Source: a virus
Strand: one strand, 5' to 3'
IMG/VR virus record: IMGVR_UViG_3300043469_003168
Location: 1 to 39,218 of that record
DNA: 39,218 bases
Part shown: piece after piece, positions 13,922 through 35,925 of the stretch
Position numbering within the stretch: the stretch's first letter is position 1
How the letters are laid out: the number at the start of each line of letters is the position of its first letter
Program-made: the position numbers and the translations under genes
The notes under the pieces: generated by a model
Database searches by the model: none
What the model saw: only the letters and a program-made list of their open reading frames with translations
Told to the model about the DNA's origin: nothing

Positions 13922-14367
13922 CAGCCACCGCCTGACTGACCGCGGCGGGCGTCAGCCCAATCGGCCTTGCCCTTGGCAACAGACGTTCCGGCGCCAAGTA
14001 TCCCCGACAATAAAGAAAGCTTGCCCTGCAGTTTTTGTTGCTTGGCCTCGGCGCGCAGCGCGGCCGCCTTGCCCATAGCCTGGCGGCGGATTTCCAGCGC
14101 GTCCAGCGTCGCATTGATCTTGCTTTCGCGTAAAGCATCGAGCGCGCTGCCGGTACCGCCCTGGAAACCGTTGGAAAATTGCGCCGCGATCTGATCGCCC
14201 ATGGTCGCGCGCGCCGCCTCGCGGATCCGCGTTTCTTCAGCCGAGCCTTGCTGCAGCGTTTCGCGCGCCTGCTTTTTCAGCGCCTTGCTGTTGGCATTGC
14301 CAGCCAAAAGGCCGCCGACGCCCTGCACGATATTGCCCAACGATTGCGCCGCCGCTGCCGCCTGCAT
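13921..14367 (-). CDS. Small Ala-rich internal virion protein (T7 gp14-like position)
   Basis: A 148-residue protein starting MQAAAAAQSLGNIVQGVGGLLAGNANSKA. A longer reading back to 14550 is open, but the ATG at 14367 overlaps the TGA of the gp13-like gene by one base (TGATG), and the extra N-terminus would lie inside that gene, so 14367 is preferred. Features: an N-terminal Gly/Ala hydrophobic stretch (about 9-24), a Gln/Arg/Glu-rich helix (29-60), a second helical stretch, and a hydrophobic patch near 118-130 (LSLLSGILGAGTSVA). This matches the size and amphipathic character of gp14-type proteins that are ejected into the outer membrane; homology is inferred from order. Confidence 0.6.
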   Translation of the reverse strand: MQAAAAAQSLGNIVQGVGGLLAGNANSKALKKQARETLQQGSAEETRIREAARATMGDQIAAQFSNGFQGGTGSALDALRESKINATLDALEIRRQAMGKAAALRAEAKQQKLQGKLSLLSGILGAGTSVAKGKADWADARRGQSGGG

Positions 14368-14879
14368 CAGCTGATCCTCTCGAATAAAATATGCGTTTCG
14401 GACAGGCCGCCAAATTTGCGCAGCACATGCGCAGGCTTCAGGCCGACAAGCCGGGCCCAGACGCACTCGGGCGTCGCCATGGTCAGCACCGCCTCCAGCA
14501 GCTGCTGCGCATCCAACCCGGGAAATTGATCGAGCACGCTTTCCGCGCATGGCCCGCGGACGATTGCCTCCACACGCTTCAGGCCGCTGCGCACAATGCG
14601 ATCGCGGGCAAATCGCGTCATGGCCAGATGCGCGCGGCCGATGCCAGGCGCCAATGTGGCCCAGGCAACGCCCTGCACATCGGGGAAAGTTTCACGGATC
14701 CCGATGCACGCGATCAGGCGGCCCTCGGAACGCACTGCCCAGGCTTCATCCTGATCGGCCAAGGCCTCGGCTTCCTCGCGCGTGCAGCTGCGCGTATCGA
14801 TGCCAACCGTCATACGCTGCGAAGATTGAACTTCGATCGACAACAGATCATCAGCTTGAAGGCGGGAAATGCTAACCAT
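14367..14879 (-). CDS. GNAT-fold protein, T7 gp13 / DUF2833-like
   Basis: A 170-residue protein whose layout fits a GNAT acyltransferase fold. A strand pair runs around 47-64 (EAWAVRSEGRLIACIGIRE), a central segment around 72-95 (WATLAPGIGRAHLAMTRFAR) occupies the acetyl-CoA-binding position, and a late strand and helix run around 140-168 (ECVWARLVGLKPAHVLRKFGG). Phage proteins of this family (T7 gp13 and relatives) sit between the tail nozzle and the internal core genes and assist virion morphogenesis; enzymatic activity is not established for them. It overlaps the nozzle gene by eight bases and the gp14-like gene by one. The canonical QxxGxG/A loop is not clearly present, so a catalytically degenerate member is possible. 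Confidence 0.65.
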   Translation of the reverse strand: MVSISRLQADDLLSIEVQSSQRMTVGIDTRSCTREEAEALADQDEAWAVRSEGRLIACIGIRETFPDVQGVAWATLAPGIGRAHLAMTRFARDRIVRSGLKRVEAIVRGPCAESVLDQFPGLDAQQLLEAVLTMATPECVWARLVGLKPAHVLRKFGGLSETHILFERIS

Positions 14880-23661: not shown

Positions 23662-25353
23662 TCAAACCCTTCCTCGTAAAACATCGAAACCGCTGTCGTT
23701 GACAATGGGCCGACGGCGTTGCCCTATGCGGCCCTGCCCATCGCTGGACAGGCCCAAGCCTTTGTTGAGCTCAAAGCAGCCATATTGGATCGCGTTCATC
23801 AGATCCTCGTAGCCCTGGACCTTTTTCGGCACGTCCGAATAGGTGCCATCTGTGCTGCCCTTGCCAATGCGAACGTAGTAATATTTTGTCCGAAACGCGC
23901 GGCGAACCATCGTGCAGCGCTTGTGCACAAGGATACCCCGCACATCGGCGTAAATCGGCCCAAATAGATCGCGGACAGCCTTGATACGCGGCGCAATTGC
24001 GTTTTTGGGGACACGCGCCTTGCGCACCCGGTGCCCTAATCCCTTTTGAAATTCTTGCCGCCAGCTTTTGAAATTGATGGCCTGCTCGCCTGCAGCTCCA
24101 GCTGGATCGCAGACAGCATCGCCTATTTCAAATCCGGCGTAGCGCGTCGCGAGCAGATCGCGCACCTGCTTGCCAAGCGTTTCGCCGCCCATCTGCACAA
24201 CATGGATTTCATCGTTGTCGGTTTCAAAAACGCAGGCGATTTCCTCCAATATACGCACCTGGCGCTTGACCTGCTGCGCAATGACCACAGCGCCTAAGAT
24301 GCCCTGATCCGCCCACACAAGCAGCGGGATGCCTGGAATGGCCTCAAACTCGCCGCTATGCACATCCTCGACATATTCGGGGTACACCGATCGCCCGGCC
24401 AATGGCGGGGTAAATTTGCTGCGCAGCATCCGGTCGATATAGACCTGGTTGCCGCGCGCTTTGGCGAACAGATACTGCCGCTCGTAATATCCTTTTGGCA
24501 GATTTTCGAGATTTTCAGCCTCTGGATTTACCGCCCAGCCCCCGGGTATATCTTGCCCTTCCAAAATTGCCGGCGGATATTCGATATATTCGATCAGCGG
24601 TCGATCCGCCGACATTTCCTCGATCGCCGAAGCGACATCATCGCCAAGCCTTTGCTCGACCAGAACGCCATGCAGGTAATTTTCATCATCGGCGCCGTTA
24701 AGCGACAGGCCGATGAACGGATCCACGACCTGATCGGGATCCAGATCGCCAAAACGCCCGACGCGGCCTGCCATGAATGTAAGCAAATCGGGATGTAGAC
24801 GGTCAGCCTCGTCGACAATCGCGGCCGTAAATTCGGCGCCGCGCATCGCATCCTCGATCGACTGATCGCCGATCGCGCGGAACTCGATCTCAACCGATGC
24901 GATATCGATCGCCTTGGCATCGCGATCGAGAATGTGCCCGTCCCGCTTCAGGACCATGGAAAACTGATGCACTGCCGGCATGGACATGATGAACCGGCCG
25001 ACATGACCAGGAACGATCTTTTTCCAGCTGGGGATCGTGTTGCGCGTGATATTGGGATACGTATCGCGCACGAAAATATATCGAGATTTTCGGATCAGCT
25101 GGCCCTGGCTGTTCAAAACGCCCTTTTGCTTGGCCGCATGATGCTGGATTTTGGTGGAATAACCTATCGTTTTACCGCATCCAACCGGGCCCATGGCGCC
25201 GACAATGAACGCGGGACTTGCAATAAGCCGATCGGTTTTGGGACCGATGCGCTTCAGCTCGCGCGCAGGCGGTAATGGCTCGTTCTCCAGATCCGGCTCT
25301 AGCGGATCGATATCGGGATAGTCAGGATGGCGATCTAAAACCTCATACGACAT
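23662..25353 (-). CDS. terL: Terminase large subunit
   Basis: A 563-residue packaging ATPase-nuclease. I use the ATG at 25353 rather than 25425 because a GAGGAGGG site lies about ten bases upstream. Walker A is GPVGCGKT (residues 55-62) and Walker B AAIVDEAD (177-184, Asp181-Glu182). The C-terminal half has the RNase H-like nuclease layout: LLVWADQG with Asp349, EEIACVF around 370-376, and GDAVCDPAG with Asp416. It cuts concatemeric DNA and drives it through the portal. The start overlaps the end of the small terminase gene by 11 bases. Type of end (cos, pac or direct repeat) cannot be read from this sequence. Confidence 0.9.
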   Translation of the reverse strand: MSYEVLDRHPDYPDIDPLEPDLENEPLPPARELKRIGPKTDRLIASPAFIVGAMGPVGCGKTIGYSTKIQHHAAKQKGVLNSQGQLIRKSRYIFVRDTYPNITRNTIPSWKKIVPGHVGRFIMSMPAVHQFSMVLKRDGHILDRDAKAIDIASVEIEFRAIGDQSIEDAMRGAEFTAAIVDEADRLHPDLLTFMAGRVGRFGDLDPDQVVDPFIGLSLNGADDENYLHGVLVEQRLGDDVASAIEEMSADRPLIEYIEYPPAILEGQDIPGGWAVNPEAENLENLPKGYYERQYLFAKARGNQVYIDRMLRSKFTPPLAGRSVYPEYVEDVHSGEFEAIPGIPLLVWADQGILGAVVIAQQVKRQVRILEEIACVFETDNDEIHVVQMGGETLGKQVRDLLATRYAGFEIGDAVCDPAGAAGEQAINFKSWRQEFQKGLGHRVRKARVPKNAIAPRIKAVRDLFGPIYADVRGILVHKRCTMVRRAFRTKYYYVRIGKGSTDGTYSDVPKKVQGYEDLMNAIQYGCFELNKGLGLSSDGQGRIGQRRRPIVNDSGFDVLRGRV

Positions 25354-25948
25354 CGTTGCGGCCCTCCTCGATATCGTGATATTCCGCATCGTAAACGAAT
25401 GTCCCCTCGGCCACTTTGCGCGCATCGTCCTCGCTGATATTCAGACCTGGTACCAGCAGGTTGAAATCGCCCTTTGCGTCCAATTCGACTGCGACAGGCT
25501 TCTTGCTTTCGATGTACGGCAGCAGCCCTTCAGCGCAGCGCACACGCAGCGCCTGGGCATCGCCGTACGACATCCGCCGCTTGATCGGATCTATTTGCCT
25601 GGAACGCTCAACCAAGACTTCAGGCGGCGTTGTCTGGATCTGCATCATGGTGACTGCAGGATGCTGGCCGTGCGACAGGATGAAGCGCGCGAAATCCTCG
25701 CTTCGCCGGTTTTTGGATCCCCGCGGGCGGCCGCGCCTGTTCTCCCTGGCCTCGCGCAATACCGTCAAATTGCCAGCATTGGGCCCGAGGCGCGCTTGTG
25801 CATCCGCCATTTCCTCGGGCGTAATCGGATCGAGGAAATCGAACTGCTGAACTTGCGCCTTTTCCCCGTCGATCAGCGCCTTTGTTTGCTGAACGAGATT
25901 TTCAGCCACAAGTTTTCCACCGTCTTTTGCACCATCGTTAATTGACAT
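25343..25948 (-). CDS. terS: Probable terminase small subunit
   Basis: A 201-residue protein directly upstream of the large terminase. The open frame runs back to 26140, but the extension has abnormal Arg/Cys-rich composition, while the ATG at 25948 (MSINDGAKDGGKLV) has a GGAGG site nine bases upstream. Features: helical N-terminus (EEMADAQARLGPNAGNLTVLREARE), a basic AT-hook-like GRPRGSKNRRSEDFARF (about 72-88), and a helical middle (PPEVLVERSRQIDPIKRRMSY). DNA recognition by the small terminase selects the phage genome for packaging. The call rests on position and the basic helical build. Confidence 0.7.
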   Translation of the reverse strand: MSINDGAKDGGKLVAENLVQQTKALIDGEKAQVQQFDFLDPITPEEMADAQARLGPNAGNLTVLREARENRRGRPRGSKNRRSEDFARFILSHGQHPAVTMMQIQTTPPEVLVERSRQIDPIKRRMSYGDAQALRVRCAEGLLPYIESKKPVAVELDAKGDFNLLVPGLNISEDDARKVAEGTFVYDAEYHDIEEGRNDVV

Positions 25949-26556
25949 CGCGGCCGCCTCCGATAGCTTGTGTAATTCGGTGCAGCTTTCCTGCCGTTTT
26001 TTGCATACCCCGACCCGTATCGACCGGGTCGAAACGCACCGGCCACCCCTTCCCCGACCCGATCTGGCGCCAACCGTTTCGGCGTGCCCCGCCTTGGCGG
26101 TCGCGCATTGTGCCGCTATGGTTAAGGCGGCGAAGGGCAATCAAATTTTGGCAAAGCTTGCGCGCCAGGGAGCTAGGGGAGATCGTCGCCGGCAATGGGG
26201 GCATAGGGGGGGTGCCTACCGGCACCTGGGCGCATGCGCTCGCCTTCCCGATAGGAAGGGGCCTATTGCCAGAATAGCGCGCATTTCTGCGCCTTTGCGC
26301 CGACCATTCCAACATTGCCATTCCAACAAGCCCTGATCGACCCGCTGAAACCCGCAGAAATCCGTCAATCGCCCTCGCCTGGTCGACATCGAGCCCAGCT
26401 GCTGCCCGATCGATGCCGATCGGCCCGAAATCGCCAAAAGTTTCGCCAGGACACCCGAGCAACAAACCCCTGCAGGCACTGATCGGCACATATCGCCCGA
26501 CTAATTTAATCGAAACCGGCGGAAATGCGTGGCTTTCGATGCCTGCTCGCAGTGCT

Positions 26557-26802
26557 GGTTCTGGCCAGAACCGCGCAGAACCATGGCCAGAACCAATATC
26601 TATATGATATATAACAATATATTGGAGTGGTTCTGAGGTTCTGGATTTTCTCGCGCACATATACGCGCATGTACGCATATACGCACGCCTACGCGCATAA
26701 CGCGAGGCAAAATCACAGAACCACAGAACCGAGCCTGTTTGTGCAATGTTTTCAATATGTTGCTGGTTCTGGCCATGGTTCTGGCTGGTTCTGTCCAGAA
26801 CC
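26557..26802. repeat. Mirror-symmetric array of 12 GGTTCTG heptamers; candidate replication origin
   Basis: Twelve perfect heptamers. Plus orientation (GGTTCTG) at 26557, 26629, 26637, 26765, 26777 and 26787; minus orientation (CAGAACC) at 26566, 26576, 26588, 26716, 26724 and 26796. The order is four, two, two, four, and every spacing mirrors around 26679.5: gaps 2, 3, 5 on the left are 5, 3, 2 on the right, and the two inner pairs both have gap 1. The first four flank AT-rich DNA at 26595-26625. The centre carries four TACGC copies (26662, 26672, 26680, 26690). Iterons beside an AT-rich tract are typical of phage and plasmid origins, and P4-type primase-helicases use short repeats of this kind. 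The origin role is inference. Confidence 0.75.
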
Positions 26803-26843
26803 GCCCCCCCTGACCCGATGGACGCCGAAAATTGGCTCGCCAA

Positions 26844-26873
26844 TCTATAGGCTCCCCAACGGGCCGGGGTCAA
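26844..26873 (-). promoter_or_regulatory. Candidate leftward promoter facing the late block
   Basis: Minus-strand TTGACC (26873-26868), 18-base spacer, TATAGA (26849-26844). It would transcribe through the heptamer array toward the small terminase gene, giving a leader near 900 bases. A CGGGCCGGGGT repeat (26860-26870) sits in its spacer and could be a regulator site. Confidence 0.4.
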
Positions 26874-27046
26874 GGTCACAAAAAAAGAAAGATGCGATCG
26901 CGAGCTGATCGATCGGGCCGGGGTAGCATTTAATGAACGCTCGCGCACCGCGTCCGCTACGCGGCCGCTGCGAGCGTATTTTATATATTGACATGACGCT
27001 TTCGCGCCATGTTGAGCGGCATCGATGCCAAGCACAAAATGATTGC

Positions 27047-27085
27047 TTGACATGCTCGGCCCTTCCGCTTTATAGGAAGGGCCGA
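27047..27085 (+). promoter_or_regulatory. Rightward promoter with overlapping inverted-repeat operator
   Basis: TTGACA (27047-27052), 18-base spacer, TATAGG (27071-27076), about 50 bases before the gene at 27129. A perfect 11-base inverted repeat, TCGGCCCTTCC (27056-27066) and GGAAGGGCCGA (27075-27085), spans the spacer and the -10. That placement fits a repressor operator. No U-tract follows, so a terminator is unlikely. Confidence 0.5.
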
Positions 27086-27128
27086 GGCCGTCGGAATTGT
27101 CCGCGGACCTGGTCAGAAAGGACCTGAA

Positions 27129-27314
27129 ATGAACGATCAACCCGATCTTATCAAACAAGGCCTGCAGCAGCTCGGCAACCCCGACGCTGCACGCAAACAA
27201 GCCGAACTGCTGCGCTTGCGAGCTGCAGCTCCCATGCGCCCCACAGACGGCCGCACGGCCGATGTCGATGGCCTCGGCCTGTTCGACACTGTCCGCAGCC
27301 CCAGCTTGTTTTGA
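27129..27314 (+). CDS. Small hypothetical protein, first gene of the rightward two-gene unit
   Basis: A 61-residue protein beginning MNDQPDLIKQGLQQLGNPDA, with a short amphipathic helix (about 5-32, rich in Gln, Leu, Ala and Arg) and a non-helical C-terminus (RTADVDGLGLFDTVRSPSLF). An AAAGGA site precedes the ATG at proper spacing and the promoter at 27047 lies just upstream. No family is recognised. It is followed after 12 bases by the 197-residue gene. Confidence 0.6.
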   Translation: MNDQPDLIKQGLQQLGNPDAARKQAELLRLRAAAPMRPTDGRTADVDGLGLFDTVRSPSLF

Positions 27315-27326
27315 AAGGCCTTTAAG

Positions 27327-27920
27327 ATGAACAACGAACAAATCGAGCAGCAACGCAAGATCTACATTCCCGCCAAGGCGCGCAAATTTGTGTGCAACGG
27401 CGCCGATGCGACCGCTTACGTCTACGACGATGCCAAGGGCCGGCCCTGCGTCGTTGCTTTTATTGGCCGCGCGCGCAAGCCCTCGGGCCGCTACTATTTC
27501 AACAGCGAACAACGCCGGGAAGCTTATGTGCGGCAGATCTTTGACAGAGCCCGGGAACGCGCCCAATACAAGGCCGAGCGCGCGGCCGAGAAAAAAGCCT
27601 TTGTCAACCCGTACAAGGTTGGCGATATCTTTCGCAGCAGCTGGGGCTACGATCAAACCAATATCGACTATTTCGAGTGTGTCGCCGTCGCCGGCAGCAT
27701 GCTGACGGTTCGCGAGCTGCGCCAGGACACCGAAAGCGATGGCTTGCTGACCGGAAAATGCGTGCCGCTGCCCGGCGAGTACCGCGGCGAGCCTAAGCGG
27801 GTTCGCGCGCAACCGTGCGGCTTCAAGTCGCCAATCTACGGTTGGGCGTCTTTTGTGGAGCCCCAAATGATTGCCGGCATCAAAACCTATGACAGCTCTA
27901 GCTGGAGCAGCTACGCCTAA
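27327..27920 (+). CDS. Hypothetical protein with WGYDQTN motif
   Basis: A 197-residue protein. The N-terminal half is basic (IPAKARKFVCNGADATAYVYDD, then a Lys/Arg/Glu-rich helix about 70-92). The second half starts at VGDIFRSSWGYDQTNIDYFECV (about 97-118), followed by strands (GSMLTVRELRQD) and PIYGWASFVEP. As far as I recall, proteins with a GDIF-xSSWGYDQTN motif are scattered in phages and plasmids with no assigned function. It ends 22 bases before a strong terminator and is transcribed apart from the early and late operons. An AAAGGCC-like site precedes the ATG. Function unknown. Confidence 0.65.
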   Translation: MNNEQIEQQRKIYIPAKARKFVCNGADATAYVYDDAKGRPCVVAFIGRARKPSGRYYFNSEQRREAYVRQIFDRARERAQYKAERAAEKKAFVNPYKVGDIFRSSWGYDQTNIDYFECVAVAGSMLTVRELRQDTESDGLLTGKCVPLPGEYRGEPKRVRAQPCGFKSPIYGWASFVEPQMIAGIKTYDSSSWSSYA

Positions 27921-27942
27921 AAACCCATCAACGGCCAGCATC

Positions 27943-27974
27943 GGGGCCCGGGCAGCAATGCTCGGGCCCCTTCT
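27943..27974 (+). terminator. Strong hairpin terminator of the 27129-27920 unit
   Basis: Stem arms GGGGCCCG (27943-27950) and CGGGCCCC (27963-27970), extended inward to about 12 pairs including one G-U, closed by a GCAA tetraloop (27955-27958) and followed by TTCT. It lies between converging genes and may stop transcription from both sides. Further left-right symmetry (GCAAGGC 28001-28007 and GCCTTGC 28033-28039) follows. Confidence 0.65.
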
Positions 27975-28084
27975 GCTATGTGGGACACCAACTAAGTTGC
28001 GCAAGGCGGCGCCCGATAACGCCGCGCTGGAGGCCTTGCGAGCCGTGCCAGATGTCCCGGGGTATTTCTTCGCCGGCAATTGCA

Positions 28085-30115
28085 TCACGCGCCCTCGCCG
28101 GTCTGCTTAGCCAGCCAGGCGGCAACGGCCGCGGCCGCACTGGACGCCGGCAATTCCTCGGCATCAATCACCGCGCACAAGGGCACCAGCACCGCGTTGG
28201 CGCTGATCCGGTCGAACTTTACCTTAACGCCATCGATGGCGCCGATCGCGCCGCGCTGGATCTGCTCGCCCTCGCCGGCTGTCCACTCGATTTCCGTACG
28301 GCCGAGCGCTTGCTTCCACACGCCGCCCCGCCATTTTGTATCCTGGAACAACGGATCCAGCCCGCGATGCTTCCAGGCAATGGCCAGATAGCCAGGCTGA
28401 TGCGGGACATAGTTTTGTGTCCCCCAGCGCGGTACCCGCTCGCCATCCGGCCCCTCGACCATATCGAGCAGCTTAGCGTTGACCAGCTTCAGGCCGAGCT
28501 GCTGCAGGCGCCGCGTGGCGCTGCCGTCCTCGTTCTCGACCGCGTCGCGGATTGCATCGCCAACCCAGCTGCCCAGGGTCACGCGCTCGTCACCGCCGCG
28601 CGCCTGGACCGGGCTAGTCAACAGATGATCCAGGCAAGAGCGCTCTTCGCTGCCGGCATCGCCGATATCGGTCAGGCTGGCAGGATCGCAGCGCAACGCC
28701 CATTCGTTGACCAGCTCATCATCCGGCAGCTCGTCATAAAGCGCGATATCGGCGCACGCGAGCAGCGTACCGTAAACATTCTGGCCGCGCGCATCGAGGC
28801 CGCGCTTCTGCAGCGCCTCGGCATAGGCCGCGATGGTTTCATCCAGGCGCTCGGCCTGATCGATCACCCGGCGCAGCAGCTTGGCGCCGAGCGCGGCCGC
28901 GTTCATTTTGAAAAAATCGGGTTTCTTCAGGTCGCTGCGCAACTTCTTCAGCTCGACCGTTACGATACGGCTGCGATCCTGCGCCTGCAACGGCGGCTGC
29001 AGGATGCTGGAGAACCAAAACGGGCTGCGCAGGGTAAATTCATGCGCCTGCTGATCCTGGCCACCCCTGTGCCCCTTGGCGCCGCCTGCAGCAACGCGGG
29101 CGAGCGCGATCAGCGCATCGATCTTTTCTTTCGGCGCGTCAGGCTCCAGCTCGTCAATGAAAACAGGCACGGTGGAATTTTTCAACGTCTGGCGGATCGC
29201 CGCCTCCGATGCGTTGGCCGTGTTCATCCGCCCAGGGCCGAGCAGATGGCCGATGAAGCCCTCGTTGGCGCTTGGCTCGCCATCCAGCGTTGACTTACCG
29301 GTGCCGCGCGGGCCGACAATCCACATGACAGGCCGCCATGACAGGAAACCGCCCAGCTGCGACGCAACCAGGGCGCCGAGCAGCAGCATGGGATCCAGCA
29401 ACGGCCGCTTGTAATTCCACGTCTGCAGCTGCTGCAGCACGCGCTGGCCGGCATCGATGCCAACCTCTTCATGGTGCGGCCGCATCGATGGCGCAAAGGC
29501 AGGGTAAACATAACCGCCATGCGCGCCGGGATCCGCATAATGATATCCGCTTACGGCGCCATTGGCACGCTCTTTGGGCAGCATCAACGCATCGCCCAGG
29601 TGCAGAACCAGATGCCCCTTGTCGGTACGATGCGCGCCGCGGCCGCGCAGCTTGCCGGTGGGGTCGAAGATCCCGCGCCGCGTGCACTCTTCAATGTGCG
29701 AGCGCGAGGCTTCGGCCTGGTCGAAACCGATGATGCGCGCCTTTTCGACCTCGACCCATTGCTTAGAGCTTCGGTCATATTCTTTCTTCGGCTTGGACCA
29801 TTGCGGCCAGCTCGCCTCCAGGAAATCGGATCCGCTGCCATAAAGGGCAATCATCGCATTTTTGCCGTGCCGGTTATTGGCATCGAGGCCGACGATCTGC
29901 CCCAGGCCGTCCAGATAATAGCATTTGATGCTACCCGACATGTCGGACTGTATGCCCAGGCACTTGACCGGCCCGCCCAAAGGAAAAGGCGGCCGCTCCG
30001 ATCGCGCGCCGCCATCATCATCGCCCAGCATCGGGCCGGGGTCACCCGCTTCAGCCAGGCGCGGCGCATCGACAGGGTTCTGCAGCGCCTCCAGGACAGG
30101 ATCTGTGCCGTTCAT
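28085..30115 (-). CDS. Replicative helicase-like P-loop ATPase
   Basis: A 676-residue ATPase in the replication operon. The ATG at 30115 overlaps the primase TGA (ATGA) and has a GGGGAG site; the open frame to 30169 is discarded. Walker A is GPRGTGKST (268-276) and Walker B PVFIDELEPD (317-326), followed by a sensor-like stretch PFWFSSILQPPLQAQDRSR (about 365-384) with an arginine-finger-like pattern. The N-terminal 200 residues form a separate domain with a strand-rich GLGQIVGLDANNRHGK region. The layout resembles SF3/AAA or DUF927-type phage helicases paired with a Toprim primase. It probably unwinds DNA at the phage origin; the exact family is not certain. Confidence 0.75.
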   Translation of the reverse strand: MNGTDPVLEALQNPVDAPRLAEAGDPGPMLGDDDGGARSERPPFPLGGPVKCLGIQSDMSGSIKCYYLDGLGQIVGLDANNRHGKNAMIALYGSGSDFLEASWPQWSKPKKEYDRSSKQWVEVEKARIIGFDQAEASRSHIEECTRRGIFDPTGKLRGRGAHRTDKGHLVLHLGDALMLPKERANGAVSGYHYADPGAHGGYVYPAFAPSMRPHHEEVGIDAGQRVLQQLQTWNYKRPLLDPMLLLGALVASQLGGFLSWRPVMWIVGPRGTGKSTLDGEPSANEGFIGHLLGPGRMNTANASEAAIRQTLKNSTVPVFIDELEPDAPKEKIDALIALARVAAGGAKGHRGGQDQQAHEFTLRSPFWFSSILQPPLQAQDRSRIVTVELKKLRSDLKKPDFFKMNAAALGAKLLRRVIDQAERLDETIAAYAEALQKRGLDARGQNVYGTLLACADIALYDELPDDELVNEWALRCDPASLTDIGDAGSEERSCLDHLLTSPVQARGGDERVTLGSWVGDAIRDAVENEDGSATRRLQQLGLKLVNAKLLDMVEGPDGERVPRWGTQNYVPHQPGYLAIAWKHRGLDPLFQDTKWRGGVWKQALGRTEIEWTAGEGEQIQRGAIGAIDGVKVKFDRISANAVLVPLCAVIDAEELPASSAAAAVAAWLAKQTGEGA

Positions 30116-31242
30116 GCCGCTCTCCCCTGCTCTAACGGCACCGGTTGCGGCGCCACGGCGATCATCCATTCGTCAATATCCTTGTACGGTTGCGGCGGCC
30201 GCACGATCTGCACCGCTAGGCCGCGGGCCTGCTGGCTTGCGATTGCACGCTCCAGACTGACCAGCTCGGCATCATCCTTGTCATTGTCGACCACCATCAC
30301 CAGGCGCCGGCATTGCGGCGGCAACAGGATGGCGCCCATATTGCGCAGGTTAAGGCCGGAAATAATCCGGGCGCCGGGCATCTTCATGCGGATCGCGATG
30401 CACTTCTCGATCCCCTCGGCCATATATATCGGCTCGTCGGGGTGCATTTCGGTCATGCTCTTGCCGCTGGATCCCTTGTGGATCGGAATAAAGCCGCCGC
30501 CCCATGGGCCCAGCGCCATGCGCGCGTTGCGGCCGTCGATCTTGGTCCAGCCCCGCGAAGGGCTATGCTGGATATAGGTCCGGTGCGTCGCAACGTGGAT
30601 CTGCTTGGATCCGTTCCAGGCGAGCACCTGGGCAAGCATGCAGTGCATTTTCACGCCATGCTCACGGTTCCAGGCTTCAGGATGATAGCGAAGCGCGCCC
30701 GGCCATTCGCCGATCGGCGCATTGGACAGCTGCCGGTTGCGCAAATAGGCCTCGGCAGGCGTGCCGGCCAGGGCTTTCGTGTCGGCATGCAGGTAAAGCG
30801 CGCGGGCGCCCTTCATCTTGCCTTGCCGCTCGACCATTTCCTCGGCCGCGCGTGCCTCTTCCCGGGCGCGCTGCTCGGCTGCACGCTTGGCGAGCTCTTC
30901 AGGGCTTGGCCGTACTGCAGGGCCGCTCCAGCTGTCAGCGATGCCCAACCGCTGCTTGACATCCTGCAGCGCGGCCTTGCGATCGCCGCCATAACGGCGA
31001 AGCGCGAGCAGATCGATCATGTCGCCATGATCTTCGCCCAAGCGCGCATTGCCGTAATCGGTCCAATGGCCGATATTGCTGCCGGAAAGATTTACGGCCA
31101 GGCTTGCGCTCTTGCCGCTGTCGTCAATCCCCGATGCCATCCATTTGTTGCCGGCCTTGTGCCCATTGGGCAGCAGCTCTTTGGCGAGCGATGCTGCCTG
31201 GGCGTTGAACTGCGCAGCAATTTCGGCGACCGATACCAACAT
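30112..31242 (-). CDS. DNA primase with Toprim domain
   Basis: A 376-residue protein. The N-terminal domain (about 1-100) resembles phage CHC2-type primase heads: GHWTDYGNARLGEDHGDMIDLLALRRYGGD (58-87) keeps the flanking motif, but the usual zinc cysteines are absent. A charged linker (115-145) leads to a Toprim domain at about 271-360: EGIEKCIA with Glu276, VVDNDKDD with Asp319 and Asp321, and KDIDEW near 354-359. It would lay down primers for the adjacent helicase and host polymerase. The gene is coupled to the zinc-finger gene upstream (TGATG) and to the helicase downstream (ATGA). Confidence 0.8.
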   Translation of the reverse strand: MLVSVAEIAAQFNAQAASLAKELLPNGHKAGNKWMASGIDDSGKSASLAVNLSGSNIGHWTDYGNARLGEDHGDMIDLLALRRYGGDRKAALQDVKQRLGIADSWSGPAVRPSPEELAKRAAEQRAREEARAAEEMVERQGKMKGARALYLHADTKALAGTPAEAYLRNRQLSNAPIGEWPGALRYHPEAWNREHGVKMHCMLAQVLAWNGSKQIHVATHRTYIQHSPSRGWTKIDGRNARMALGPWGGGFIPIHKGSSGKSMTEMHPDEPIYMAEGIEKCIAIRMKMPGARIISGLNLRNMGAILLPPQCRRLVMVVDNDKDDAELVSLERAIASQQARGLAVQIVRPPQPYKDIDEWMIAVAPQPVPLEQGRAA

Positions 31243-31539: not shown

Positions 31540-32211
31540 TCACGCCCCCCGCTTCAGCAGCTCTTTGACCACACGGTCAAACCGCGCGCGGCGATCGGCA
31601 AGGCCATTGGTCCCGCCATTGATGCGCCGGCTTTCATCATCAACGCCGGGCGTATCGGCCAGGCGGTTGATGTCATTCGCTTCCCAAAACCAGGCCGCAA
31701 ACATGATGCCGCCCTCGATCGTACCTTGCACCCATGGCACCGCTTCGATTAGCGGCATGTCCATTTCCTCGGCAAAGCGCGTATAATTGTCGCGCCCCGT
31801 CGCCTGCAGCGGACCGCCCCCGCGGAAAAACCAACCGTCACCTGGTTGCGTATTGCCGAGATTTTCGCGGCCCCATTCGCCGCCATAGATGCAATTGGCG
31901 ATCGCGACCGGGTTCGCCTTTTGCGTAGCCGTACGGCCGAAGGCCTTGGCATCGGCCCGGCTGATGCGATGCCGGCCAAACAGGGTCAGCAAGGCATCAA
32001 CTTTGTAATTCAGATTTTCGCTGCGCGGTTTCAGGCCGCTTTCATGCGCCATCTGCGCAATAAAGGCCGCAACGCGCCGCACGCGATCGATTTCGAACTT
32101 GGCGCATGCCGCCTTGATCGGCGCGACCCATGCCTGCAGATCCGCGATCGGGGTTTCCGGCGCCGCAATGTGCAGCAGCTGCGCATCGATCAATTCTATA
32201 GGATGCGTCAT
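31540..32211 (-). CDS. Endolysin, glycoside hydrolase family 19
   Basis: A 223-residue GH19-type lysozyme. Hallmarks: VAAFIAQMAHESGLKP (about 47-62) with catalytic Glu57 in the HES motif, SENLNYK (64-70) with the second acidic residue Glu65, a substrate-groove segment IYGGEWGRENLGNTQPGDGWFFRGGGPLQATGRDNY (about 108-143), and NGGTNGLADR near the end. There is no signal peptide, so release needs a holin. GH19 endolysins cleave the glycan backbone of peptidoglycan. The position is unusual: it lies between the Cro-like regulator and replication genes, coupled by ATGA to the regulator, not with the holin-like genes at 2656-3272. Confidence 0.85.
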   Translation of the reverse strand: MTHPIELIDAQLLHIAAPETPIADLQAWVAPIKAACAKFEIDRVRRVAAFIAQMAHESGLKPRSENLNYKVDALLTLFGRHRISRADAKAFGRTATQKANPVAIANCIYGGEWGRENLGNTQPGDGWFFRGGGPLQATGRDNYTRFAEEMDMPLIEAVPWVQGTIEGGIMFAAWFWEANDINRLADTPGVDDESRRINGGTNGLADRRARFDRVVKELLKRGA

Positions 32212-32453
32212 GCCGCCTGCCTTTCCTGTTGTGAAATGGAGCGCACGGCGGCCAGATTGAAAAAATCATTGGGCTGCAGATCGTTTATGATCTCGCAAAG
32301 CGAGCGCATAGCGTGCCCGCGTGGCTGAATTTCGCCGTTTTCCCAGCGAAACCATGTCATACGGGTAACGCCAAAACGCTTAGCGGCCTGCGCTTGAGTA
32401 AGACCCTCAACCGACCGCCACGCTTTCAATTTTGCCGATGCGTTGTTTACCAT
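32208..32453 (-). CDS. Cro-like XRE-family regulator
   Basis: An 81-residue HTH protein. The recognition unit is TQAQAAKRFGVTRMTWFRWENGEIQPRG (about 19-46), a typical XRE helix-turn-helix. It is the first gene of the leftward early operon and is divergent from the CI-like repressor. No ribosome site is visible before the ATG at 32453 and operator O1 (32462-32480) begins nine bases upstream, so a leaderless or near-leaderless message is possible. Placement opposite a longer repressor gene fits a Cro role; alternatively it could act as the immunity repressor with roles reversed. Confidence 0.75.
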   Translation of the reverse strand: MVNNASAKLKAWRSVEGLTQAQAAKRFGVTRMTWFRWENGEIQPRGHAMRSLCEIINDLQPNDFFNLAAVRSISQQERQAA

Positions 32454-32461
32454 GAATGTCG

Positions 32462-32480
32462 AGTAACATCATGCGTTACT
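32462..32480. promoter_or_regulatory. Operator O1, 19-bp inverted repeat
   Basis: AGTAACATCATGCGTTACT: six-base arms AGTAAC/GTTACT around seven bases. It lies between the divergent Cro-like and CI-like genes, two bases from the -35 of the rightward repressor promoter, like an activating operator beside a lambda PRM. Two related sites lie at 33148 and 33181. A lone half-site GTAAC occurs at 32496. Confidence 0.65.
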
Positions 32481-32482
32481 AG

Positions 32483-32510
32483 TTGACAAGCCCATGTAAC
32501 AAATTATGCA
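32483..32510 (+). promoter_or_regulatory. Promoter of the repressor gene
   Basis: TTGACA (32483-32488), 16-base spacer, TATGCA (32505-32510). A start site about seven bases later would fall on or just before the ATG at 32520, giving a leaderless repressor mRNA; no ribosome site precedes that ATG. Confidence 0.5.
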
Positions 32511-32519
32511 GCTTTTTTT

Positions 32520-32888
32520 ATGACTGCCCAGCTTTTACTCTTCGTCCCTATGACAGAGTACCCTAACCGCATATATGAATTGCGTCGGGCCAAAGGCTGG
32601 TCGCAGCTGGATCTTGCCGAAATCGTCGGCTGCTCCAAGATGCATATATCCGGCATGGAGCGCGGCAAAAGAGAACTTTCCCTCGAATGGATGAGACGAC
32701 TGGCCCAGGCTTTTAATGTCCCGCCGGTCGATATTTTAGCCGACGTAGACAATCCCGATCGCCTAACTGATGAAGAGCAGCGCTTTCTCGAAACCTACCG
32801 TGCGGCAGATCCCCAGACCAAGGAAAGTATTCAACGCGTTACTGAAGCTTTGATGCCATACAAGCACATACCTTCGAAAGCCGCATAA
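32520..32888 (+). CDS. CI-like phage repressor (XRE family, no peptidase domain)
   Basis: A 122-residue protein with an N-terminal XRE helix-turn-helix: RIYELRRAKGWSQLDLAEIVGCSKMHISGMERGKRELSLEWMRRLAQAFNV (about 17-68), closely matching lambda-type HTH_3 patterns. The C-terminal part (about 80-115, LTDEEQRFLETYRAADPQTKESIQRV) is a short helical segment like those of small repressors and is far too short for an S24/LexA-type autoprotease. A second ATG at 32550 is possible; neither has a ribosome site, and the promoter position favours a leaderless start at 32520. It should hold lysogeny by binding O1, O2 and O3. SOS induction by self-cleavage is not expected. Confidence 0.8.
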   Translation: MTAQLLLFVPMTEYPNRIYELRRAKGWSQLDLAEIVGCSKMHISGMERGKRELSLEWMRRLAQAFNVPPVDILADVDNPDRLTDEEQRFLETYRAADPQTKESIQRVTEALMPYKHIPSKAA

Positions 32889-34578: not shown

Positions 34579-34927
34579 CCTGACGCCCGAGCAGCAAGCC
34601 ACGCTCGACCGCGTGCTGAAGGGCGAGGCCTTGTGCCGGGTCAACACGCTGCGCATCGAGCAGATCACTAAATTCGGGCATACGGATGAAGCCGATGCCA
34701 ATGAACCGGTGAACAGATTGCCCAAATTTGCGCGCGAGGAAATCAACGCCGCGCTGGAGGATCTGATGATGCCCCGCGAAACCGGCATCCCGCTTGCCTA
34801 CAAACGTATGGCCAAGGCCGCGGCAATGTTGCTCGCCGGCATGGATCGTATCCAGCCCGAGCTCGATCGCCTGCAGCGCGCGCGACCATCAACCCCTGAT
34901 TTATTTGCAGAGAAGGATCCAGCATGA
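34553..34927 (+). CDS. Hypothetical helical early protein
   Basis: A 124-residue protein beginning MTNIATPPDLTPEQQATLDRVLKGEA with a GCAGGAG ribosome site. It is helical and charged, with an acidic Asp/Glu-rich middle (GHTDEADANEPVNRL) and a helix pair (EEINAALEDLMMPRETGI, AYKRMAKAAAMLLAGMDRI). It overlaps the preceding gene by 26 bases and the ParB-like gene by ATGA. No family is recognised. Confidence 0.6.
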   Translation: MTNIATPPDLTPEQQATLDRVLKGEALCRVNTLRIEQITKFGHTDEADANEPVNRLPKFAREEINAALEDLMMPRETGIPLAYKRMAKAAAMLLAGMDRIQPELDRLQRARPSTPDLFAEKDPA

Positions 34928-35925
34928 GCAACCTCGGCCGCCTTGGCTTAAACCCTCAAAAAGGCACTATGCCGGTTTTGCAATGGATGCCGCCCTCGAT
35001 GCTGGCAATTGATGGCAGCTATCAGCGCACGATCGACAACCCGGCATCGCAAAAGCTGATCTTGCGGATTGCGAAATTTTGGGATTGGGATTTGTGCCAG
35101 CCACTGGTCGTATCGCGCCGGCCTGATGGTACGCAATGGATCGTTGATGGCCAGCACCGCCTTGCCGCGGCCGTATTGCGTGGCGATATCCAGCAGCTGC
35201 CTTGTTTTATCTGCAATTACCCCGATGCTGCGACCGAGGCCCAGCGTTTCGTTGACTTCAATCGCAACCGCAAGGCGCTAAAGCCTTTAGACCTATGGAA
35301 AGCCGCCGTTGCGGCCGAGGAACCGGATACCATGGCGATCATCGGCGCCCTCGATGCCGCCGGCATGCACGTCCACCACAGCAGCAACAACCACAGTATG
35401 CCGCCCGGCGCCGTGACCGCAATCGGCGCCCTACAGCGCACGGTGGCAAAATATGGCGTCAATGTGCTGCAGGTCAGCCTGATGGCCATCGCAAAAGCTT
35501 ATGAAGGCCAGGTACTGCAATACAATGGCACCATGATCGGAGGCAGCGTGGCGATTGTCGCGCGCGAATGTGGCGATGCAACCGCACTCGATTGGCAGGG
35601 CTCGCCTTCATTTTCTTCGCTTATCAAGTTGCTCGGCGGAACTTCGCAGCGCGATTGGTACGAGAAAATTGCCGAGGTTAAAAAGCAAGAGCCCGATCTG
35701 AATTTTCAACGCGCAATCAACAAATGTTTTACAGACGCATGGGCCAATCGCGGCCGTGAAATTGTTGCGGCGCCACCGCCACCCGTCGCTCGCTTGGCAC
35801 CAACAATCGATATCCCGCGAAAACCAGAGCCCGCGCCGGCACCAAAGCCCGCCAGCATAGATCCGCTTGCTAAGGCAATCATCGAAAAGCACGGCATCGC
35901 TCGGCCTGCAGGCGCCAAGGCGTGA
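34924..35925 (+). CDS. ParB-like (DUF6551-like) protein
   Basis: A 333-residue protein with a ParB/Srx-type core: WMPPSMLAIDGSYQRTIDNP near residues 21-40, PLVVSRRPDGTQWIVDGQHRLAAAVLRGD (about 60-88, with the diagnostic DGQHR), and FVDFNRNRKALKPLDLWKAAVAA (about 109-131). The middle is helical and the C-terminus is a Pro/Ala-rich linker with a final helix. ParB-like proteins in phages act in plasmid-like partition, as nucleases or as DNA-binding factors; CTP-dependent function is not tested. It is coupled by ATGA before and GTGA after. It is more like a DUF6551-type enzyme than a classic ParB with HTH. Confidence 0.7.
   Translation: MSNLGRLGLNPQKGTMPVLQWMPPSMLAIDGSYQRTIDNPASQKLILRIAKFWDWDLCQPLVVSRRPDGTQWIVDGQHRLAAAVLRGDIQQLPCFICNYPDAATEAQRFVDFNRNRKALKPLDLWKAAVAAEEPDTMAIIGALDAAGMHVHHSSNNHSMPPGAVTAIGALQRTVAKYGVNVLQVSLMAIAKAYEGQVLQYNGTMIGGSVAIVARECGDATALDWQGSPSFSSLIKLLGGTSQRDWYEKIAEVKKQEPDLNFQRAINKCFTDAWANRGREIVAAPPPPVARLAPTIDIPRKPEPAPAPKPASIDPLAKAIIEKHGIARPAGAKA

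Follow-up and report, generated by a model that had tools for sequence, protein, structure and literature searches.

A mirror-symmetric heptamer array next to a helicase gene is a probable replication origin of temperate phages and linear plasmids

Gram-negative PICI origins carry two iteron sets 3' of rep that flank an AT-rich region, and one cloned gram-negative PICI rep-ori drove plasmid maintenance; the authors knew no other replicon organised in this way (PMC6092414). SaPI Rep uses its C-terminal domain to bind repeats that immediately follow its own gene, and Cch2 likewise recognises AAGTG repeats past the end of its gene, a site of only three repeats with no dyad (PMC7581432). SCCmec Cch and SaPI5 Rep are self-loading initiators. 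The phage array described here comes close to the PICI organisation described by those authors, and no description of this phage origin was found in the open-access papers searched.

The window is a 39,218-base virus contig. Besides terL and further late-operon ORFs, it carries genes for a portal-type head-tail adaptor, a Toprim primase, a tyrosine integrase and a primase-helicase homologue of 694 aa. Its 458-aa recombinase matches integrase family phrog_1 and the record ends just past a tRNA-Thr. A protelomerase target site of the N15 type would require a protelomerase gene in the element; the recombinase, the protein compared in this regard, and the terminal tRNA-Thr are as in an integrating phage. 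The integrase and the tRNA-Thr at the record end indicate an integrating temperate phage which, judged by its nearest relatives, is probably podovirus-like. On the minus strand, primase and helicase come first, followed by two small antisense genes, the array, terS and terL. The array lies 1283 nt past the helicase stop codon, in agreement with the initial annotation, which had placed it close to the end of the replication operon. The principal features of the region are as follows.

25343 to 25948, minus strand: probable terS, beside terL, with an inferred start at 25948
25938 to 28088, minus strand: ORF X, a frame of 716 codons that is stop-free across the whole array
26557 to 26594: left outer cluster of four GGTTCTG units (+ - - -, gaps 2, 3, 5), located by exact pattern search
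26595 to 26628: left AT-rich spacer of 34 bp, 6/34 G+C in the sequence
26629 to 26643, plus strand: left inner tandem pair GGTTCTG A GGTTCTG, located by pattern search; inner tandem conserved in relatives
26644 to 26715: 72-bp centre, which includes four TACGC units and an alternating purine-pyrimidine run of 37 nt
26716 to 26730, minus strand: right inner tandem pair mirroring the left pair, located by pattern search
26731 to 26764: right AT-rich spacer of 34 bp, 13/34 G+C in the sequence
26765 to 26802: right outer cluster of four units (+ + + -, gaps 5, 3, 2), located by pattern search
27129 to 27314 and 27327 to 27920, plus strand: two small genes between helicase and array
28085 to 30169, minus strand: 694-aa primase-helicase homologue (phrog_21086 / phrog_35358)
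30112 to 31242, minus strand: 376-aa Toprim primase, the replication partner (DUF7146, Toprim_3)

The probable terS is the next gene downstream of the array on the helicase strand, and terS homologues are present in 55 of the 83 loci scanned. The terS candidate gave no PHROG match and the 694-aa protein no Pfam match. Two further repeat elements are found close to terS. Repeats of the GGGGTCGGGG type occupy 26000-26090 upstream of terS, have counterparts in the relatives L015, L019 and L024 and represent a candidate packaging or terS-related signal. The direct-repeat element CATTCCAACATTGCCATTCCAACA at 26306-26329, between array and terS, is a candidate terminase recognition element; it is recognisable in altered form in L015 and L024, with an exact copy only in the window. 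Elsewhere, an endolysin-type (chitinase-like) gene (31540-32211, minus strand) sits within the replication operon between an HTH regulator and the primase.

The array is an exact dyad in both unit position and unit orientation. An exact pattern search of the window located all twelve GGTTCTG heptamers at 26557-26802, where the initial annotation had reported them. Around 26679.5, the gaps (2, 3, 5, 34, 1, 72, 1, 34, 5, 3, 2) and the orientations (+ - - - + + | - - + + + -, with GGTTCTG as +) are mirrored without exception, as had been claimed. All six possible pairs are exact mirrored pairs, with p = 5e-5 under shuffling of gaps and strands. The six heptamers on each side amount to two sets of short iterons. 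Over its 246 bp, the array matches its own reverse complement at 70% of positions and is the most symmetric example among the arrays compared. The heptamer is concentrated here, with 12 of the window's 19 copies falling inside the array and shuffled sequences containing only 3.1 ± 1.8 copies (largest 9).

The centre of the array is 51% GC and is distinguished by its purine-pyrimidine alternation, which ranks in the top 0.1% of the window. The four TACGC units noted at the outset are present at 26662, 26672, 26680 and 26690 with the reported 10, 8, 10 spacing, but they are direct repeats within the 37-nt run, and relatives keep the alternation at the centre rather than TACGC. Alternation was in the top 1% of the respective locus for 54 of 58 centres tested, and the alternating run at array centres has a mean length of 21.5 nt, the background value being 6.1. 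What had been described as AT-rich flanks are two 34-bp spacers inside the arms (26595-26628 and 26731-26764), the left one a candidate melting or protein-bending segment. Across relatives, spacers between inner and outer units have a mean GC content of 41% compared with 64% for the loci, and array centres are not AT-rich (60% GC).

To place the array among related elements, a four-helicase profile was used and brought 80 loci. These helicase relatives (29-72% identity) share the two-tier dyad while the heptamer is phage-specific, with CAGAACC, GGGAACA, CCTAACG, CGTTACC, CTGCAAC, GAGACGC, GGGACAC, CACAACG, CCACGAC, CATAACC and others observed. In a k-mer scan nearly every locus contained a dense group of copies of a single heptamer, in both orientations and usually 30-600 bp past the helicase. 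At least six copies of one heptamer, in both orientations and within 300 bp, were found in 70 of 77 non-redundant records versus 5 of 154 shuffles. Scrambling of the array in close relatives, named in the initial annotation as a refuting observation, was not seen: L015, whose helicase is 72% identical to that of the window, keeps the window's orientation pattern and spacing column by column in a gap-free alignment, with some units altered to GGTTCCAG. A full dyad is indeed unusual, as first suggested, yet it is a family-wide architecture and not the feature of one phage.

When each array was placed on its own centre, the canonical half consisted of an alternating purine-pyrimidine centre, inner tandem units, an AT-rich spacer and reversed outer units. 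Inner units 20-60 bp from the centre point in one common direction (by construction for the first unit on each side, not for the others), units at 75-115 bp are mostly reversed relative to them, and at 115-135 bp the direction turns back again. In 26 of 60 arrays, mirror pairs (within 2 bp) were more frequent than in shuffles (p<0.05), and the combined Fisher p is about 1e-24. No clear array was seen in BcepC6B, a Leisingera plasmid, Bordetella PY223 or the Azospirillum copy. A direct DNA similarity search of the phage collection yielded nothing meaningful and helicase scans of the genome contig collection found no relative. An exact scan for the 16-mer GGTTCTGGCCAGAACC returned 12 viral contigs with isolated palindromes and no arrays, which we consider chance matches. 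In L020, two near-identical palindromes AGTGCAGATAATCTGCACT (14135-14153 and 14533-14551 of that locus) lie next to 38-bp repeats and precede small antisense genes close to the origin, likely representing a shared operator or promoter.

The position of the array in phages makes a packaging role a rival reading. The array usually lies between the primase-helicase gene and terS, 29-400 nt past the helicase in most relatives, and almost every phage relative has it upstream of terS/terL. On this reading the heptamers would be small-terminase binding sites of a cos or pac site ahead of terS. Consistent with this, terS distance and heptamer distance are correlated (rho 0.41, n = 30), and in one exceptional sub-group (L030, L031, L033, L038, L039, L041) the array is nearer terL than helicase, being located 5-8 kb from the helicase with genes intervening and ~2-3 kb upstream of terL. 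A mirror-symmetric site, however, provides no packaging direction, and the GGGGTCGGGG repeats and CATTCCAACATTGCCATTCCAACA region are closer to terS and make better candidates. The dyad also occurs away from terminase genes. In Bdellovibrio phage phi1422, a dyad of eleven GGTAACA units with five exact mirrored pairs (p = 2e-4) begins 10 nt after the homologous helicase gene and is 7.5 kb from terL. The 8.3 kb plasmid pArsFIN16, whose annotation consists solely of the helicase, one small protein and single protelomerase, Rpn and HTH proteins, carries the dyad and has no annotated terminase gene, although PLSDB tables are incomplete and a gene may have been missed. Taken together, we regard a packaging site as improbable.

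pArsFIN16 belongs to a set of small Arsenophonus nasoniae protelomerase plasmids with a helicase-dyad module (L144, L145, L146 and L107). In these linear plasmids of 8-12 kb the dyad directly follows the homologous helicase gene and is built from GGTAACA in paPv15, GCTAACA in paPv13, GGTTGTA in paNv_CAN17 and CATTACA in pArsFIN16. paNv_CAN17 is recorded as circular, yet has a protelomerase gene. The centres of the Arsenophonus and phi1422 arrays are AT-rich. The plasmids list protelomerase, HTH and Rpn genes, and the helicase is the only recognisable replication gene in the incomplete PLSDB tables. Since such a plasmid needs an origin, the dyad is the obvious candidate. paPv13 and paPv15 are co-resident in one strain and differ in their heptamers, which would fit a role of the word in setting compatibility.

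The same plasmids bear on two other functions proposed for the array in the initial annotation. A repressor or activator bound to the heptamers might loop the DNA and control replication or the late operon. Palindromic unit pairs such as GGTTCTGGCCAGAACC do resemble dimer operators, and an additional regulatory role would be compatible with an origin. As the main function, such a regulatory centre is nevertheless very unlikely: the repressor-region DNA separating the divergent HTH genes (32300-32600) contains no GGTTC, a promoter scan of 26400-27140 found no sigma-70-like promoter, and small plasmids conserve the array beside the helicase gene. Even less credible is a centromere for partition, with a ParB-like protein as its ligand. 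A ParB/Srx-domain protein is encoded in the window (34924-35925, plus strand), but its gene is 8 kb from the array, the phage carries an integrase gene and lies next to a tRNA-Thr, and the 8-kb Arsenophonus dyad plasmids list no par genes, ParA and ParB included, in PLSDB tables that are incomplete. The ParB/Srx-domain protein (phrog_1033) is probably not a partition protein; other partition genes were not seen.

The 694-aa protein resembles initiator helicases in its predicted structure. We modelled the window helicase with AlphaFold2 from a 65-sequence alignment (pLDDT 89.9) and compared the model with solved structures. The best VIA-align match was SCCmec Cch (5dgk_B, Z 15.8 over 435 residues), spanning helicase residues 60-674 and thus reaching the C-terminus, with SaPI5 Rep (7om0_D) at Z 15.7 and MCM proteins at about 15. 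Foldseek listed SaPI5 Rep and D5-like helicases. By sequence alone the similarity to Cch is not significant (E 0.7, 12% identity). The model indicates that the window helicase shares the initiator-helicase fold of SaPI Rep and Cch. Comparison of two plasmid helicases suggests which part reads the heptamer. The proteins of paPv13 and paNv_CAN17, whose heptamers are GCTAACA and GGTTGTA, are 99% identical over residues 151-420 but only 73% over 531-600 and 60% over 601-694. Because the C-terminus diverges together with the heptamer, this points to the C-terminal part (about 531-694) as the proposed heptamer-binding region. In phages, a Mantel analysis of heptamer covariation with protein distance did not single out the helicase, with primase, terL and terS correlating about equally; the analysis is non-discriminating because all of these neighbours follow the same lineage.

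We conclude that the array is very probably the replication origin of the phage, with GGTTCTG as the iteron for the 694-aa initiator helicase and the heptamer word as a replicon identity tag. The bidirectional origin put forward in the initial annotation is well supported by the position of the array, by the exact dyad and its conservation in relatives, by the linkage to the helicase across phages and tiny plasmids and by the predicted initiator fold. We infer initiator binding, melting, bidirectional firing and incompatibility from these observations. Each GGTTCTG would be bound by the phage-encoded helicase, and the six sites per side would recruit one helicase assembly each, in opposite orientations and face to face. 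The AT-rich spacers would then melt, possibly together with the centre. Alternating purine-pyrimidine DNA is prone to unwinding or Z-DNA formation under negative supercoiling. Two helicase rings would load head to head and depart bidirectionally, with the neighbouring Toprim primase priming synthesis. The array is not marked by a switch in GC skew. As the word changes between phages while the layout stays, initiators may fire only their own origin, representing a natural lock-and-key between a replication protein and its origin.

A stop-free frame runs through the origin in a subset of these phages. The initial annotation had described the region as gene-free, a description that needs qualifying since ORF X (25938-28088, minus strand) crosses the array. 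ORF X starts with GTG on the helicase stop (GTGA) and stops just inside terS. The window and its nine nearest relatives have exactly one stop-free frame over the ~1 kb from helicase (or last small gene) to terS, always on the helicase strand, with 2-17 stops in the other five frames. Over all arrays, a stop-free frame is present on the helicase strand in 30 of 67 cases and on the other strand in 6 of 67. A frame starting from the helicase stop (often ATGA) is open through the array in 26 of 45 testable loci versus about 5 expected, and most of these frames close about a dozen bases or less from where the next gene starts. Codon-position substitutions do not support an ordinary gene. In the L028/L029 comparison they are flat for ORF X (0.28/0.30/0.27), while helicase (0.16/0.12/0.39) and terS (0.12/0.12/0.35) show a third-position excess. 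The product may be a fast-evolving protein. The combination of flat codon positions and conserved openness makes ORF X look selected for translation and not for its product. It is possible, though somewhat less likely than not, that the origin is a translated non-coding element in which ribosome passage itself is selected and the ORF X amino acids are unconstrained. Ribosome passage would protect the helicase-terS transcript from Rho, prevent R-loops or control origin firing. Other clades lack ORF X-type frames, as do the arrays of phi1422 and the Arsenophonus plasmids, so the origin itself does not depend on ORF X. It raises the question of how transcription, translation and replication coexist at one site.

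The results suggest that a PICI-like origin plan is not confined to satellites and point to an origin, open to experimental test, for linear plasmids and for a large group of temperate phages that is apparently uncharacterised. The roughly sixty natural origin/initiator pairs, which combine a single layout with many different heptamers, form a data set on how a self-loading helicase reads DNA and could be used for building mutually compatible replicons.

The closest described systems are the PICI/SaPI rep-ori modules (SaPIbov1, SaPI5, EcCICFT073), which share with the window an initiator helicase of related predicted fold, two sets of short iterons, iteron words specific to each element and a C-terminal domain implicated in iteron recognition (PMC6092414, PMC7581432). 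Their origins lie 3' of rep, a position matched closely in most relatives, whereas the window array is 1283 nt past the helicase and that of one sub-group 5-8 kb from it. Their iteron sets flank a putative melting region; AT-rich DNA between the two sets is seen in the Arsenophonus and phi1422 arrays. In contrast to these systems, the window-type dyad is found in complete temperate phages and linear plasmids, and each arm of the near-exact dyad is two-tiered, with inner tandem units, an AT-rich spacer and a reversed outer cluster. The centre is alternating purine-pyrimidine and the AT-rich parts lie inside each arm. Whereas PICI satellites lack structural genes of their own and are helper-dependent, the window encodes terL and a portal-type head-tail adaptor. 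SCCmec Cch / Cch2 represents the closest solved fold to the modelled 694-aa protein (PDB 5DGK; PMC7581432). Unlike the three-repeat Cch2 site, the window array is a twelve-unit dyad. Iteron plasmid origins such as RK2 and P1 similarly possess repeated initiator sites and an AT-rich melting segment, and their iterons define incompatibility. RK2 and P1 iterons are long direct repeats, and the small Rep that reads them depends on a helicase loader of the host. In the window, by comparison, the units are 7 bp long and arranged in mixed, mirrored orientation, and the initiator would itself be a helicase. SV40 and papillomavirus origins also use a helicase-type initiator, short sites and symmetric double-hexamer assembly (see also PMC7581432) but, unlike the window, have fewer sites, an N-terminal recognition domain and no sequence kinship.
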